A stretch of DNA of 64,000 nt, taken from a virus. This document shows positions 839 through 62,137 of this stretch, piece after piece (within the stretch, counting starts at the first letter, position 1; every line of letters starts with the position of its first letter). The stretch spans positions 62,001 through 126,000 of IMG/VR virus record IMGVR_UViG_3300005436_000501. One strand, given 5' to 3'. Under the pieces are notes generated by a model. The model was not told where the DNA came from and ran no database searches. It saw only the letters and a program-made list of their open reading frames with translations. The position numbers and the translations under genes are program-made.

Positions 839-1753
839 TCAGTTCTTCGCGGCGGCGCTCAGGGCGGCGCCGAGGTGCTGCTCGAGGGTCACGGCGAACT
901 GGTCGGCGGTCAGTTGCACACCCTGCGCCGCGGCGGTCTCAAGTGCGGGGCCGAGGGTGGATGCGAGCGCCGCGGCGAGCGCGGCGACGTCCACGGCGGG
1001 CGGCGAGGACAGGGCGGCGACCGTCTTGTTGAGGTTCGCGAGCGCCGAGGCGAGCGCCGCGGTGCCCGTCTTGCCGTCGTTCGTCGCGACCCACGCGCCG
1101 TGGGCGAGCTGCCCGAGCGGCACGTTGTGGCCGGTGCTGCCGTCGGGGAAGGTGACGTCCTCGCGGCCGTAGTTGTAGACCGCCGCGGCGACGGCGGCGA
1201 TGTCCTGTTGTGTGAGCGGCATGTCTGCTCCTCGGGTGTCCCACAGGGGTGTGTCGGCGGCCACGACGGACAGGTCCCAGGGGTGCCCGAGTTGCGTGTC
1301 GCCGGCGTATTGGCGCGCCGCCCACCCGGACGCGAGCCGGGTCGCGGCGGCGTCGCGGTCCCAGTTCGCGACCCAGTAGCCGCCGGAGGGGCGCGGGTTG
1401 CCCAGGACCGTGGACTGCTGCCCGTACACGGCCACGAGCCACCCGGCGGCGTGTACCGCGGTGTCGTAGGCGCGCAGGTATATCGGGTCGACGCGGTCTT
1501 CGAAGTCGAGCGCGGTCAATGTGCCCGCCGGCTGGCCGTGGGCGCGGCACCAGGCGATCAGCGCGGCGGCGTCTTTCGCGGGGTCGCCGCCGATGTTGCG
1601 GGTCAGGATCGGCAGCCGGTAGCGGCAGGGGATCGCCGCGACTTCCTCGTCGGTCCACACGTGGGGGGTGTCGCCGTGGACGTAGAACGCCCAGGCGTCG
1701 ACCTTCGGGTAGGCGGCGGGCGGGTTTGCCGAGTCACCCATGATCGGGTTCAC
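839..1753 (-). CDS. Endolysin, GH25/DUF1906-like glycoside hydrolase domain
   Basis: 304 residues from a GTG at 1753 that overlaps the upstream stop by four bases (GTGA). The N-terminal ~190 residues resemble the TIM-barrel glycoside-hydrolase-like domain (DUF1906/GH25 type): VDAWAFYVHGDTPHVW at the start, LTALDFEDRVDPIYLRAY with acidic residues in the middle, and GYWVANWDRDAAATRL near the end. The C-terminal part has a helical linker and repeats typical of cell-wall attachment or oligomerisation regions. The likely role is cleavage of host peptidoglycan at lysis, secreted or released with the neighbouring membrane proteins. No signal peptide is visible, which fits holin-dependent release. 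Catalytic residues cannot be assigned with certainty. Confidence 0.75.
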   Translation of the reverse strand: MNPIMGDSANPPAAYPKVDAWAFYVHGDTPHVWTDEEVAAIPCRYRLPILTRNIGGDPAKDAAALIAWCRAHGQPAGTLTALDFEDRVDPIYLRAYDTAVHAAGWLVAVYGQQSTVLGNPRPSGGYWVANWDRDAAATRLASGWAARQYAGDTQLGHPWDLSVVAADTPLWDTRGADMPLTQQDIAAVAAAVYNYGREDVTFPDGSTGHNVPLGQLAHGAWVATNDGKTGTAALASALANLNKTVAALSSPPAVDVAALAAALASTLGPALETAAAQGVQLTADQFAVTLEQHLGAALSAAAKN

Positions 1754-1998
1754 GGCGTGTCTCCGTCGCCCGTGCGCTGCGGATGTGCGTCGAGGTGTTC
1801 GCGCAGGTCGGCGAGTTGCGCCCGGGTCTGTTCGGCGAGGTCGCGCTGCGCGGCGAGTTCGGACAGCAGTTGCGCGTGGCGTTTCGCCGCGGCGGTGTCG
1901 ACGCGCCTGGACACGGCGCGCCACGCCGCGGTGGGGATCGCTGCGGCGGTGAGCGCGGTCAGGGCCGTGCGGACGCGGGCGGTGTCGGGTCGGCTCAT
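1750..1998 (-). CDS. Small helical protein of the lysis cassette
   Basis: 82 residues. A weak hydrophobic stretch at about residues 10-27 is followed by a charged coiled coil (RHAQLLSELAAQRDLAEQ). It overlaps both neighbours by four bases, so translation is coupled to the endolysin downstream and the DUF1003-like protein upstream. No family was recognised. Its position suggests an accessory lysis protein. Confidence 0.6.
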   Translation of the reverse strand: MSRPDTARVRTALTALTAAAIPTAAWRAVSRRVDTAAAKRHAQLLSELAAQRDLAEQTRAQLADLREHLDAHPQRTGDGDTP

Positions 1999-2498
1999 CG
2001 GGCGGCTCCCGTCGGGGGTGTGAAGCGGTCGAGGATCTGCTGGATCTGCGCGAGGATCCGCAGGGCGGCCTGGTCCTGGACGTGGAGGTGGTTGTCTTGC
2101 GCCTGGAGGTGGCGTTGGATCTCGGCCGCCTCGTGCAGGACGGCTTCCGCGTCTTTATATGTGGCTTCCGAGCGGGCGTCAGCGGCCTTCGCCTGGATAT
2201 TCTGGCCTACGATCACAATTGGCAGGAGAATCAGCTGTAAAAAATTGCTGCTAATCCAGGCAACTATGATCGTCATATTATGGGAGGAGATCGCAGATGG
2301 GAGGCTCAGCAGGGCGACGGCGGTGAAAACATATGCCGCCCACATCGTTCCAACCGAGATGGTTATCAACAACCCGAGTCGGGCGTTGAGTCTTCCAAGC
2401 ACGCCGCTCGACCTGGCGCGATGGTCCTCCACACGCACCGGCCCCCGAGCCTTCCGCTCTTCGCGATACGGGTGCGGGACGTGCTCGTAGAGGCTCAA
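1995..2498 (-). CDS. DUF1003-like two-helix membrane protein
   Basis: 167 residues if translation starts at the TTG at 2498, six bases after a GGGGAG ribosome-binding site. Longer ATG/GTG starts exist upstream but would overlap the divergent HNH gene. Two membrane helices (about 42-65 and 76-97) flank a short loop. The second ends in IVIVGQNIQAKAADARSEA, the pattern of DUF1003 proteins, and a long C-terminal coiled coil follows. DUF1003 proteins are of unknown function and occur in bacteria and some actinophage lysis cassettes. The segment is less GC-rich than its surroundings, as is the adjoining HNH gene, hinting at recent insertion nearby. Confidence 0.65.
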   Translation of the reverse strand: MSLYEHVPHPYREERKARGPVRVEDHRARSSGVLGRLNARLGLLITISVGTMWAAYVFTAVALLSLPSAISSHNMTIIVAWISSNFLQLILLPIVIVGQNIQAKAADARSEATYKDAEAVLHEAAEIQRHLQAQDNHLHVQDQAALRILAQIQQILDRFTPPTGAAR

Positions 2499-18620: not shown

Positions 18621-21421
18621 CTATCCGGCGGAAACGCCCGAGATGCAGCCGTTCCAGCCGGGTGCGTAGCATAGGTGAGTACCGAACCAGTAGCTCGACG
18701 ACTCGTACGCGAACTGCGTCACGGGCCAGTCGATCCCCATGAAGTCCTGCACGTTGCAGATCGCCCACACGTTGCTGACCTGCGAGTCGGGGATCGGCAG
18801 GGTGTCCGAGATGATCGGACACACGCCCTGCGGCAGCCACGGCGAGACTTCCATCTCGACGTGCTTGCCCGTGGTCTCGTTCACGATCGCGACGGCGACC
18901 GAGCCGAGCGTGACCCCGGCGACCTGGTCCTGGGTGACCTGCAGGATGTAGTTGTTGGACTCGCCGGTCTTGAGCGTCGCGGACAGCTGCTTGCGGTCGG
19001 CGCCGTTGAACATGACCCGGTCGGGGTCGGCCTTGACCGAGTTGTAGAGGCTGGCGAACGCGGTCTGGAACTCGCCGCCGGGGGTCGCGGTGCCGAACGC
19101 CGAGTTCAACTTGACGTTGTAGCCGGACGAGGTGCCCATCGTCCAGGCGAGGATCCCGTCGTACCCGGCGGAGTACGCGGAGGTGTCGGCGGTGGGCGGG
19201 TTCGCTCCCGCCACCGGGATCGCGCCCTGCAGCACGATGCCGGTACCGCCAGCGCCGCCGCCGTTGACGGACTGGTTCGGGAACCGGCCGTACAGGAAGA
19301 ACGCGGAGTTCGCCGGCTGGGAGGCTCCCGTCCCGATGTACACCTTGTATCCCAGCGCCGCCGGGACGTCGGTCAGGCGCAGCACCACGTTGTGGCCCGC
19401 GGTCGGCGCGATCGTGGCGACGGTGGAGACGACGGACTCGCCGAACGCGCCCGCGTCGGAGGTGACGTACACGTAGATGTTCGTGGTGTACCCGGTCAGG
19501 GCGGCCTGCCCGGTGCCGAGGGTGTTGTCCACCAGCGACGTGCCGGTGGGCGCGGCGAGAGCGCCGGCGTACCCGGACGCGGTGCCGCGGCCCATGATCA
19601 GCATCCGCTCCTCCATCAGCTTGCTGGCGTACAGCAGGCTGGTGCGCGAGAGCTGGCGGATGTCCTGATACCCCTGGCCAGCATATTGGGCGGACCAGGT
19701 GACCTCGTCGGACATCGAGAACTGCGAGTGCGGCAGCACGACGTCGTAACCGGCGTACGCGATCTTCGGGCCGCGCGCGTAGTACAGCGAGTTGCTCGCG
19801 CCCGACGGGGCGAAGTTCGTCTGGCTGCTGTCGGCGATACCGGGGTGGATGTTGCCGACGCCGCCGGTGCCGGAGCCGGTGATCCCGGAGATCACCTTGA
19901 ACCGGTGCGAGGTGCCGAAGCCCTTGATCCGCGGCGTGCGGTTGCTGACCGGCGTCGGACGGGGAGCGAGGAACTTTGCCAGATTTGTTACCGAGCCCCG
20001 TCGGCTCGGGCCGCTTCATTTCTGCGCGGCTCTGCATGTCTCCATGCAGCTCGGACTATGCCACCACCTGCTGCTTCCGGTGATCCTTCCACCGGATGTG
20101 GACCGGATTGGACTGAGGGTTCTTCCTCATCCAAACCCCGTAGCACTTCTGGGTGCAGAACTTCTTCTCGTAGGTCCGGTTCGTCCGGTGCTCGACGAAG
20201 ACATTTCCGCAGCCGGTGCAGGTGTGCTCGATCTGAGCACCCTTCCAGCTTGCGTTGTCCTTGCCGCGCCCACTCCGACGGATGTCAGCGATCGGATCCG
20301 TGTCGGGTGTCAGTCCAACGGCGTCCGCGACCGACCGGACGCAGGCGTCCGGGTCAGCGTTGATCTGGGTTCCGTTGAACCGGAAGACCTTGTAGCCCAC
20401 ATCGGCGAGTTCGGCGTCGCGCACTGCGTCGAGCGCCTTGCGACGCTCGAGTCGGTGCGACAGTCCGTCGGCCTCGATGATCACGGGAGCCTGAAGAAGC
20501 TCGATATCGACGACATAGCGGCCGAGGTGGCATCGCTGTGTCGTGAACGAGAGTCCTGCACGTTTGAGTGCTCCATGGAGCAGCTTTTCCAGCGGAGAGT
20601 CCGCCGACGAGCCTCGCAGCTCATCGAATCGCTTAAGCGGACTCACTCGGTGCGCTTCCTTGAACTCCGGAGTGTTGCATGCGGCCCTGTGTGCAGCCTT
20701 GCGCTCGTCACTCCACACCCACGTTCGCCCAGTCATGGGCTTGCGGGCGATACCAAGGCGCTTCATCGCGTTCTCTACCGGCTTGCGTGAGCAGCCGTAC
20801 AGTTCCGCGACAGCGCGTTGCGGCCCGAGTCGGTCGTAATCCGCCTGGAGGTTGCTCCAGTCCAACAGGTGCCCCGCATCTAGTCTCTACGGACTCGCCC
20901 CTACGAACGGGGATTGCCTCGGCGTTTTCCACATGACCTGGACGCTCTAAGTATATTGCGCCCAGCGAAGGACTTTCACCGATACAGCGGGGTTCTCAAC
21001 TGCGCATCACTGCGCAGCGGCCCTACGAAAACGAAGGCGCCTCGAGGTCGAACGCGACGAGGCCAGTTCCAACGGGGGACGTGAGGTTGATGTCCTTGAC
21101 CAGGTCCGGCTGCTGCCCCTTGAGGGCGTCCAGCGCCGCGGCCACCGACGCGACGGCGTCCGGGGACATCGACTTGACCAGGTCCGGCGAGCCGAGCGCC
21201 TTCTGCAGGTACTCGATCGCGTTGGTCGGGCGCGGGCTGAAGTCGATCGGGTGGCCGGCCTTGAAGCTGGTGACGATCTCCTCGCGGGTCAGTTCCCGCT
21301 CGGGAACGCACTGGATCGACTTGACCAGTTCGTCGAAGCGGATGGAGACCTCGGCCTTGGACAGCTTCGCGGACTCCGGGGACTCACCGAACATGAGCTC
21401 GACGTTCGTGGGCAGAGCCAT
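18621..21421 (-). CDS. Major capsid protein, HK97 fold, split by a group I intron
   Basis: The gene is in two exons: exon 1 at 21421-21035 (129 codons, MALPTNVELMFGES...) and exon 2 at 19979-18621 (452 codons plus stop). Joining them gives ...VGTGLVAFDLEAP|AKFLAPRPTPVSNRTPRIKG..., which restores the conserved HK97-type capsid stretch (FDLEAPAK followed by TP.RNR.PR.KG) exactly in frame. The spliced product is 581 residues with the N-arm/delta-domain region first. Unspliced, exon 1 would terminate four codons into the intron (SFS then TAG), so splicing is essential for virion production. The gene lies directly after the protease/scaffold gene. Confidence 0.88.
19980..21034 (-). mobile_element. 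Group I intron in the major capsid gene
   Basis: About 1,055 nt. Exon 1 ends GCGCCT and its GCCUU can pair with AGGGC in the intron (P1, with the U-G wobble at the splice site). A perfect P2 hairpin (CTGCGCA, GTGA loop, TGCGCAG) follows. P3 forms between 20987-20992 and 20872-20877 (CCCCGC with GCGGGG). The R motif AGAGACTAGATG lies at 20878-20889 and its GACTA (20881-20885) pairs with TAGTC at 20054-20058 to make P7. P9 is a perfect 7-bp hairpin with a GAGA loop at 20032-20049. The intron ends with G at 19980. The endonuclease gene sits in the P8 region and its stop overlaps P7. Confidence 0.88.
20056..20865 (-). CDS. Intron-encoded EDxHD (DUF559/Vsr-like) homing endonuclease
   Basis: 269 residues from a TTG at 20865. 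Residues 1-45 carry a small HTH (RAVAELYGCSRKPVENAMKR). The nuclease core is Vsr/DUF559-like: SPLEKLLHGALKRAG, YVVDIELLQAPVIIEADGLSH (the E-x-D-G-x-x-H active-site cluster) and FRFNGTQINADPDACV. A C-terminal zinc-binding domain follows (CTGCGNVFVEH, FCTQKCYGVWMRK). It is fully inside the capsid intron and would cut intronless capsid genes to drive homing. Enzymes of this fold were first described in phage introns as I-Bth0305I-type. Its translation is probably coupled to intron RNA processing because its ends overlap core helices. Confidence 0.88.
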   Translation of the reverse strand: MDWSNLQADYDRLGPQRAVAELYGCSRKPVENAMKRLGIARKPMTGRTWVWSDERKAAHRAACNTPEFKEAHRVSPLKRFDELRGSSADSPLEKLLHGALKRAGLSFTTQRCHLGRYVVDIELLQAPVIIEADGLSHRLERRKALDAVRDAELADVGYKVFRFNGTQINADPDACVRSVADAVGLTPDTDPIADIRRSGRGKDNASWKGAQIEHTCTGCGNVFVEHRTNRTYEKKFCTQKCYGVWMRKNPQSNPVHIRWKDHRKQQVVA

Positions 21422-21445
21422 GGGCCCTGCTCCTTCCATGCGAAA

Positions 21446-60761: not shown

Positions 60762-62137
60762 CCGTCACCGCGGACGACCTGATCGCCGAGCACGCCCCCG
60801 GGCTCCTAGACGCGGCCGAGACGGACAAGGAGCCCGCCAAGCGTCCCGGACTACTGCCCGAGGAGTTCTGGGCGGCCCGCGACGTCTTCGGCCACATCCG
60901 CCGCGCCGCGTACGCCGAGGCCCGCTCCGGCGACGTGCTGTTCTACACGACACTCACCCGGCTCGCCGGAATGCTCGACCACCGCATCAAGATGCGCACG
61001 GGCATCCTCGGCCGGGGATCGATGAACTTCTACACGGCGCTGGTCGGCGCGTCCGGCGCGGGCAAGTCGTCCGGCGCGTCCGGGGCGCGCGAACTGATCC
61101 CTTCGAACAACCCCGAGTTCCGCGACGGGCTACCGCTGGGTTCCGGCGAGGGAGTCGCCGAGGTCTTCATGGGCGTCGTGGACGAGGACACGGGCGAGAT
61201 GCGCAAGGGCGAGCCGGTCACGGCCAAGGTCCGCAAGCAGGTACGACACAACGCGTTCTTCTACGTCGACGAAGGCGAACGGCTGACCCAGCTCAACTCG
61301 CGGCTCGGTACCGTGCTCGCCGAGACGCTGCGCAGCGCCGCGATGGGCGACACGCTCGGGCAGACCAACGCGTCCGAGGACCGCACCCGCTATATCGCGC
61401 CGGGCAGCTACAGTCTCGGCCTCGTCATCGCCTACCAGCCGACCACGGTCACCGCGCTGCTCGCCGATGGGCACACCGGCAGCCCGCAGCGGTTCTTCTG
61501 GACATGGGCCGAGGACCCATCCATCCCGTTCGACGCGCCGGAGCACCCCGGACCGCTGGCCCTGGACCCGTGCGTGGAGAACGCGCAGCGCAACCTCGAC
61601 ATCAGGTTCCCCGCGAGCGTCCAGGAGCTGATCCGCCGGGAACGCGTCCTACGGGGCCAGGGAAAGATCGAGGTCGCCGAACTGGACGGCCACCACCGGT
61701 TCATGACCGCGAAGATGGCCGCGCTGCTCGCATTGCTCGACGGCCGCTTCGAGGTCGACGAGACGGACTGGGATCTTGCCGAGATGGCGTGGCAGTCCTC
61801 GTGCGCGGTGCGCGATTCCCTCGTACGCCGGGCGAAGCTCGAGTCCGAGGCGGCCCGGGAGCGCGAACAGGATCAGAAGGTGCTGCTCGCGGTGCGCGCC
61901 CACGGCGCCAAGCGCGGAGCCGATCTGCGGCTTGAGCGCATAGCGATCGCGGTGCGGCGCGCGGTGTCGAAGGCGGGGCCGGGCGGGTTGTCGTTCAACG
62001 GCGTGAAGATGGCGATCGCGAGCCGGGACCGGGACGCGCTGGAGGAGTCGATCGACGTCGCCGTCTCGCGGGGCTGGATCTACGAGGACGGCGAGCGGTT
62101 CTGTATCGCGACCGAGTTCGAGAACGCGGACGCGTAG
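60758..62137 (+). CDS. DUF3987-type replicative helicase
   Basis: 459 residues. DUF3987 architecture: LAGMLDHRIKMRTGILGRGS, Walker A TALVGASGAGKSSGA at about 94-108, HNAFFYVDEGERLTQLNSRL (Walker B), and ALRSAAMGDTLGQTNASEDR-type sensor region. The C-terminal part contains a winged-helix-like segment (GGLSFNGVKMAIASRDRDAL). It pairs with Prim-Pol in many mobile elements, forming a self-contained primase-helicase. The stop is followed by the TATGGAC repeat array. Confidence 0.85.
   Translation: MTVTADDLIAEHAPGLLDAAETDKEPAKRPGLLPEEFWAARDVFGHIRRAAYAEARSGDVLFYTTLTRLAGMLDHRIKMRTGILGRGSMNFYTALVGASGAGKSSGASGARELIPSNNPEFRDGLPLGSGEGVAEVFMGVVDEDTGEMRKGEPVTAKVRKQVRHNAFFYVDEGERLTQLNSRLGTVLAETLRSAAMGDTLGQTNASEDRTRYIAPGSYSLGLVIAYQPTTVTALLADGHTGSPQRFFWTWAEDPSIPFDAPEHPGPLALDPCVENAQRNLDIRFPASVQELIRRERVLRGQGKIEVAELDGHHRFMTAKMAALLALLDGRFEVDETDWDLAEMAWQSSCAVRDSLVRRAKLESEAAREREQDQKVLLAVRAHGAKRGADLRLERIAIAVRRAVSKAGPGGLSFNGVKMAIASRDRDALEESIDVAVSRGWIYEDGERFCIATEFENADA

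Follow-up and report, generated by a model that had tools for sequence, protein, structure and literature searches.

A probably mobile group I intron with a DUF559-type endonuclease in a phage major capsid protein gene, and its capsid-confined relatives

The mycobacteriophage LittleE (Cluster J) carries an intron in its major capsid protein (MCP) gene that was shown experimentally to be spliced in infected cells, and the same report cites Tuc2009 (PMC3706429). I-Bth0305I, an EDxHD/Vsr-like homing endonuclease, comes from a phage group I intron (reviewed in PMC3943268). An outgroup of Vsr-like intron endonucleases occurs in phage group II introns, and a recent survey describes the preference of phage group I introns for certain genes as unexplained (PMC12350094). 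Here, we describe an intron in the MCP gene of a soil phage, IMG/VR record IMGVR_UViG_3300005436_000501, of which positions 62,001 to 126,000 were analysed; this whole stretch of 64,000 nt is called the window, and coordinates refer to it. The element is very probably a mobile group I intron with a DUF559-type homing endonuclease, whose lineage has apparently diversified over many sites of the MCP gene. The exons, the intron and its resident open reading frame (ORF) are placed as follows.

21035..21439, minus strand: MCP exon 1, 135 codons, 3' end GAG GCG CCT (E A P), from frame and homologues
19980..21034, minus strand: group I intron, 1,055 nt, first base U, last base G (omega G)
20056..20865, minus strand: endonuclease ORF, 269 amino acids, TTG start, with a helix-turn-helix (HTH) at residues 6-37, a DUF559 nuclease at ~91-183 and a Cys-rich zinc-ribbon-like C-terminal domain at ~211-248
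18621..19979, minus strand: MCP exon 2, 452 codons plus stop, 5' end GCA AAG TTC (A K F), from frame and homologues

Joined in frame, the two exons encode an MCP of 587 amino acids. On the genome, the minus-strand frame 21439-21023 (138 codons) ends in ...FDLEAPSFS-stop, and the frame reopens at 19979 with AKFLAPRP... The break and resumption that the preliminary description had reported are thus real, except that the intron begins TCG TTT TCG TAG and closes the MCP frame after three codons, not four. The G+C content of the insert is 61.6%, versus 70.5% for the window. A tblastn-confirmed scan of viral contigs returned 34 relatives of the spliced MCP, nearly all of them (>30) unbroken across the junction; the uninterrupted ones include L002 (95% amino acid identity over 587 residues), L003 (91%), L004-L007 (83-86%) and about 25 others. 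Comparison with intronless capsid genes, which had been proposed as a check, confirmed continuity across the junction, the window exons aligning with L002 ungapped at 90% nucleotide identity. Two relatives, on independent contigs, are occupied: in L008, whose MCP is 81-85% identical to that of the window, 1,060 bp are inserted at the same base, and in L034 the same insert lies at the same junction but is truncated by the contig end. Because both carry it there, an assembly artefact is excluded. The insert is thus genuine, has exact boundaries and occurs more than once.

The sequence is CC(G/C)^G in empty alleles and CCT^...TG^G in the window (carets mark insertion points), so that two boundaries one base apart (CC^T or CCT^) both fit the DNA. 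We chose 21034/19980 because of the group I rule that a U ends the exon and a G ends the intron, which yields the splice-site bases ...GCCU^UCG and ...AUCUG^GCA. Exact excision at these positions restores the MCP frame in ungapped alignment to intronless homologues. The preliminary description had proposed an in-frame splice of a 1,055-base intron at 19980-21034, and the >30 uninterrupted homologues and the U/G rule lead to the same coordinates.

The intron RNA can be drawn with the following helices, all on the minus strand.

21000..21017, minus strand: P2 hairpin CUGCGCA/UGCGCAG, 6/7 pairs with two-sided changes
20987..20992, minus strand: P3 5' strand CCCCGC
20919..20982, minus strand: P4-P5-P5a domain, with P4 UCGGUG (20982-20977)/CGCCGA (20924-20919) and P5 UCC (20972-20970)/GGA (20930-20928)
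20898..20912, minus strand: P6a hairpin CCCC/GGGG, the worst-aligned helix
20881..20885, minus strand: P7 5' strand GACUA (R element), by analogy the putative guanosine-binding site
20872..20877, minus strand: P3 3' strand GCGGGG
20866..20871, minus strand: P8 5' strand CACCUG, the P8 loop being filled by the ORF
20065..20070, minus strand: P8 3' strand CAGGUG, which is also coding
20054..20058, minus strand: P7 3' strand UAGUC (S element)
19991..20049, minus strand: P9 (20049-20044/20037-20032), P9.1 (20030-20026/20014-20010) and P9.2 (20009-20003/19997-19991)

Folding the intron without its ORF but with short exon ends, and without constraints, gave P1 (with a UUUU loop), P2, P3, P4, P5, P5a, P6a, P8, P9, P9.1 and P9.2, with an energy z-score of -2.6; the pseudoknot helix P7 (GACUA/UAGUC) was placed by hand. 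Covariation was evaluated on an alignment of nine related introns (A4), from which the misaligned L049b was left out and in which three rows lack the 3' half. Over these nine introns, 95.0% of cells are paired in the drawn structure and 23/48 pairs have changed on both sides, a value reached in 0/500 shuffles, although the test is partly circular, as the drawing began from the window sequence, the rows are related and P6a is poorly aligned. Sliding the helix partners by one to three columns lowers pairing to 31-44%. The long-range helix P3 is 100% paired with three covarying pairs (C-G to U-A, G-C to C-G), as are P7 and P8, with two and three pairs changed on both sides, respectively; P9.1 likewise shows compensatory changes in the nine relatives. 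P1, P2, P3, R/P7 and P9, which had been said to be drawable from the sequence, are therefore real, P7 by hand and covariation and the rest also in the unconstrained fold.

The interrupted gene we take to be the MCP gene, from synteny and distant homologues: its frame comes after terminase, portal and XkdF-like protease frames, and its product is related to a protein of Alicyclobacillus phage MMB025 that is annotated as 'major head protein' and lies among similar neighbours. Some observations weigh against reading the locus as a group I intron in a capsid gene. The capsid assignment is indirect, with an HK97 MCP match of only E 0.09 and an AlphaFold model of the MCP whose predicted local distance difference test (pLDDT) score of 43 kept it out of use. 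On the RNA side, J8/7 reads GUGGCA, unlike the usual AAGAUA, and the suggested search of the window with Rfam RF00028 (Intron_gpI) failed, giving no match at the gathering threshold or even at E 10. The latter reflects the threshold of a curated model and not a defining feature of the group I class.

The intron differs from Rfam-matched relatives in its P4-P6 part, and its P9-P9.2 3' element is common to many phage group I introns. This element, which consists of UGCAGAGNNNNGCAGAAAUGNNNNNNCC, GUAACA and the final G in that order, is present in more than 100 viral contigs, mostly right after an (A)UAGUC-like P7 strand; of 15 contigs sampled, 10 have an above-threshold Rfam Intron_gpI match that ends at it. 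In addition, the ORF-less intron L049a, from a related MCP gene, matches the full RF00028 model (42.8 bits, E 2.4e-9; gathering score 50). Given the shared 3' element adjoining Rfam matches and the match of L049a, the group I class is secure. Nucleotide patterns from the R/P8 and P9 regions of the intron matched only the two close relatives. As found in L053-L170, the 3' element (P9/P9.1 with a GCAGAAAUG loop, then GUAACA) could be used to look for introns that escape Rfam. Separately, L047, L048 and L049 hold two ribozyme core types, one like that of the window and a classical one with AAUUGCUGGGA/AUCAGCAGCC P and Q elements; in MCP genes, and even in one and the same gene, both types are associated with related endonucleases, which suggests core exchange or deep divergence.

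The resident ORF matches DUF559 (PF04480) at E 5.5e-14 (52.4 bits against a cutoff of 20.6), and its nuclease domain matches PDB entry 3hrl (NGO0050) at E 6.6e-5. DUF559 and NGO0050 were the only hits of sequence searches with the endonuclease, in which I-Bth0305I was not found. An AlphaFold2 model built from eleven family members (mean pLDDT 80) was compared with known structures using Foldseek, and the predicted fold hit both 3hrl and the catalytic domain of I-Bth0305I (3r3p) with probability 1.00 and target template modelling (TM) scores of 0.72-0.75, at E values of 0.02-0.07, that for 3r3p being only 0.05. E93, D120 and E131 are invariant in the 11 endonucleases, and H137 is present in 9/11 and missing at one insertion site. 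The earlier assignment to a DUF559/Vsr-like class therefore stands by family profile and fold, while the EDxHD label that came with it is plausible but not proven at the residue level. The ratio of non-synonymous to synonymous substitution rates (dN/dS) is ~0.2 against L008 and L034 (Nei-Gojobori), and we thus consider the ORF to be maintained by purifying selection. Its TAG stop sits within the P7 3' strand, so full translation and folding of the core would compete. Taken together, the homologues without an insert, the covariation, the bases at the splice sites and the predicted fold give good support to a group I intron in the MCP gene that harbours a DUF559 endonuclease.

Intron and host gene do not share one history. 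Between the window and L034, amino acid identity is ~51% in exon 1 and 80% in the endonuclease, and the 5' intron RNA is 87% identical; between the window and L008, by contrast, the exons are 82-85% identical and the endonuclease just 74%. Because these identities disagree, the intron appears to have moved independently of the exon. The same intron type also lies at the equivalent DLxAP^ site in far more divergent capsid genes, whose proteins are ~25% identical. At this site, the -1 base is T in 9/9 occupied alleles and in 1/34 empty ones, which prefer G or C (Fisher p 1.8e-8, relatedness ignored); such a T bias is expected from the P1 U.G pair or from co-conversion during homing. The discordant histories and the existence of empty alleles point to a mobile element.

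What the preliminary description saw as one odd case belongs to a family confined to MCP genes. A gene-blind scan for the intron 5' core found eight contigs, with the intron inside the MCP gene in 8/8. Scanning with an endonuclease profile gave 30 loci, 25 of them strong (E < 1e-26) and all 25 inside MCP genes; after removal of duplicates, the strong loci correspond to ~20 phages, or 23 if the window, L040 and L083 are included. The five weak loci (E 5e-11 and weaker) were left without an intron assignment, and the weaker matches L063 and L136 lie elsewhere than in this MCP family. As a contrast, only ~6 of 121 generic 3' elements adjoin this MCP family, strong endonuclease members being among those ~6. 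A single-sequence endonuclease search of the viral contigs confirmed no relatives, although alignment queries did find them; among 395 Streptomycetaceae genomes, two yielded DUF559 matches, all of them partial, and no relatives were found in 50,697 public phage records. L083 has a free-standing DUF559-type frame (1269-2092, minus strand) immediately downstream of its MCP gene.

In-frame splice reconstruction places endonuclease-bearing introns at ~8 positions of the MCP family, for example GT^V, DLxAP^, YPV^YT, YT^xFRN, NVP^YRF, DISA^L, NL^ILLQ and one near residue 50, some calls being ambiguous by a few codons. Introns without ORFs add FAG^QG, QG^FED and several sites near the MCP C-terminus. 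A six-residue addition in the splice call of L050 proved to be an artefact, the boundary after AACCT giving ANL^ILLQ as in L071 and L190; residue numbers on the L050 reference are six too high beyond 262. A single MCP gene holds up to four introns in L180, and in L187 if one near the N-terminus is counted. More broadly, L048, L049, L180, L187 and L183 have two to four group I introns per MCP gene, several of them ORF-less and ~240-370 nt long. When eight site labels were mapped onto a tree of 29 endonucleases, 8 changes sufficed (minimum 7; shuffled mean 17.9, with 0/200 as low). Placing L183 at site 160 in this tree was rejected, as it reads YPV^YT, and its relabelling removes one apparent exception to site tracking. 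Since site labels follow the endonuclease tree, the endonucleases at a given site belong largely to one lineage, particular to that site.

We propose that, in late transcripts, the intron RNA would fold into a P3-P9 ribozyme and take up guanosine at P7. Cleavage would fall directly 3' of the U of ...GAGGCGCCU, a sequence that the intron GGGC would hold in P1; this end would then be joined to GCAAAG..., and this splicing would allow full-length capsid protein to be made. The product of the P8-loop ORF, with its HTH and zinc-ribbon-like end, may cut intronless MCP genes at DLxAP^, and repair would copy the intron into the empty gene. The endonucleases of the lineage would have diversified onto different sites of the MCP family, each with its own subfamily.

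The confinement of a DUF559 intron lineage that radiates among many sites, with up to four introns per gene, might reflect competition between co-infecting phages, an idea we put forward tentatively. In a stronger form, the endonuclease would mainly serve phage-phage competition by cutting the MCP gene of co-infecting relatives, instead of plain selfish homing. In its favour, the target of every strong member is the MCP gene, with which a competitor cannot dispense, and lineages persist at conserved MCP motifs; but such a pattern is equally what plain homing to conserved sites would produce, and we regard this stronger form as unlikely. That the intron is dead and the capsid gene disrupted, leaving a phage or prophage that is defective for want of splicing, would fit a core too divergent for Rfam, but seems very improbable given that both exons are open with 95% amino acid identity to an intact relative, compensatory changes keep the helices, the endonuclease is under purifying selection (dN/dS ~0.2) and the same element is intact in L008. 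An intein or a programmed frameshift was rejected from the MCP frame and the RNA covariation: despite an intein-like insert in the neighbouring portal gene, the TAG that closes the frame three codons after the junction, an ORF with its own start and stop, covariation in the non-coding parts, the U before and G at the end, and searches in which no Hint-type family match was found make this explanation barely credible.

Intron-free relatives of the MCP occur in Streptomyces and Actinacidiphila genomes, which suggests a host within the Streptomycetaceae. The portal insert comprises ~348 amino acids (26758-25715, minus strand, inside ORF 27475-23612), starts with CYSDDTEVL and ends with WCGN before T. 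Together with the MCP intron, it would mean that neighbouring head genes contain protein-level and RNA-level splicing elements.

The group I intron family described here offers a natural series for the question of gene preference, with one endonuclease lineage, one target family and ~8 sites with largely their own subfamilies. The series includes occupied and empty alleles from close phages, in addition to the intron-free Streptomyces and Actinacidiphila relatives. Such genes are easily mis-annotated, as the window intron is missed by Rfam and the search of phage records returned no relatives of its endonuclease.

Capsid introns and Vsr-like intron endonucleases were already known, while a DUF559 lineage confined to MCP genes appears to be undescribed; our literature search found no account of one, which is weak evidence of absence. 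The preliminary description called a splicing-dependent capsid gene uncommon in actinophages, a fair statement to which LittleE adds a precedent, with a spliced MCP intron and a different endonuclease. The MCP intron of this actinophage resembles that of the window in being probably group I, in its U/G splice bases and in its homing endonuclease ORF; it differs in its length of 819 bp, in an ORF that is LAGLIDADG-like and runs on the opposite strand, and in being a single case (PMC3706429). The LittleE capsid was absent from searches made with the window capsid. In crAss-like phages, the MCP gene is also split by several group I introns, into five fragments in one genome, but these are phages of Bacteroidetes, and their endonuclease types and site lineages were not described as one MCP-confined family (PMC7886860). 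The terminase introns of Bastillevirinae likewise combine a Vsr-like nuclease with group I introns of a phage head/packaging gene, although in terminase genes of Bacillus phages (PMC11878797). NGO0050 (PDB 3hrl, DUF559) is like the window endonuclease in its nuclease domain, by sequence and fold, but is a stand-alone bacterial protein of ~100 amino acids without an intron. Finally, I-Bth0305I shares with the window endonuclease a Vsr/PD-(D/E)XK-like nuclease with extra DNA-binding modules, the predicted fold matching 3r3p, whereas the window endonuclease differs from it in lacking a sequence match, in belonging to the DUF559 family, in its combination of HTH and zinc-ribbon-like domains and in its MCP target.
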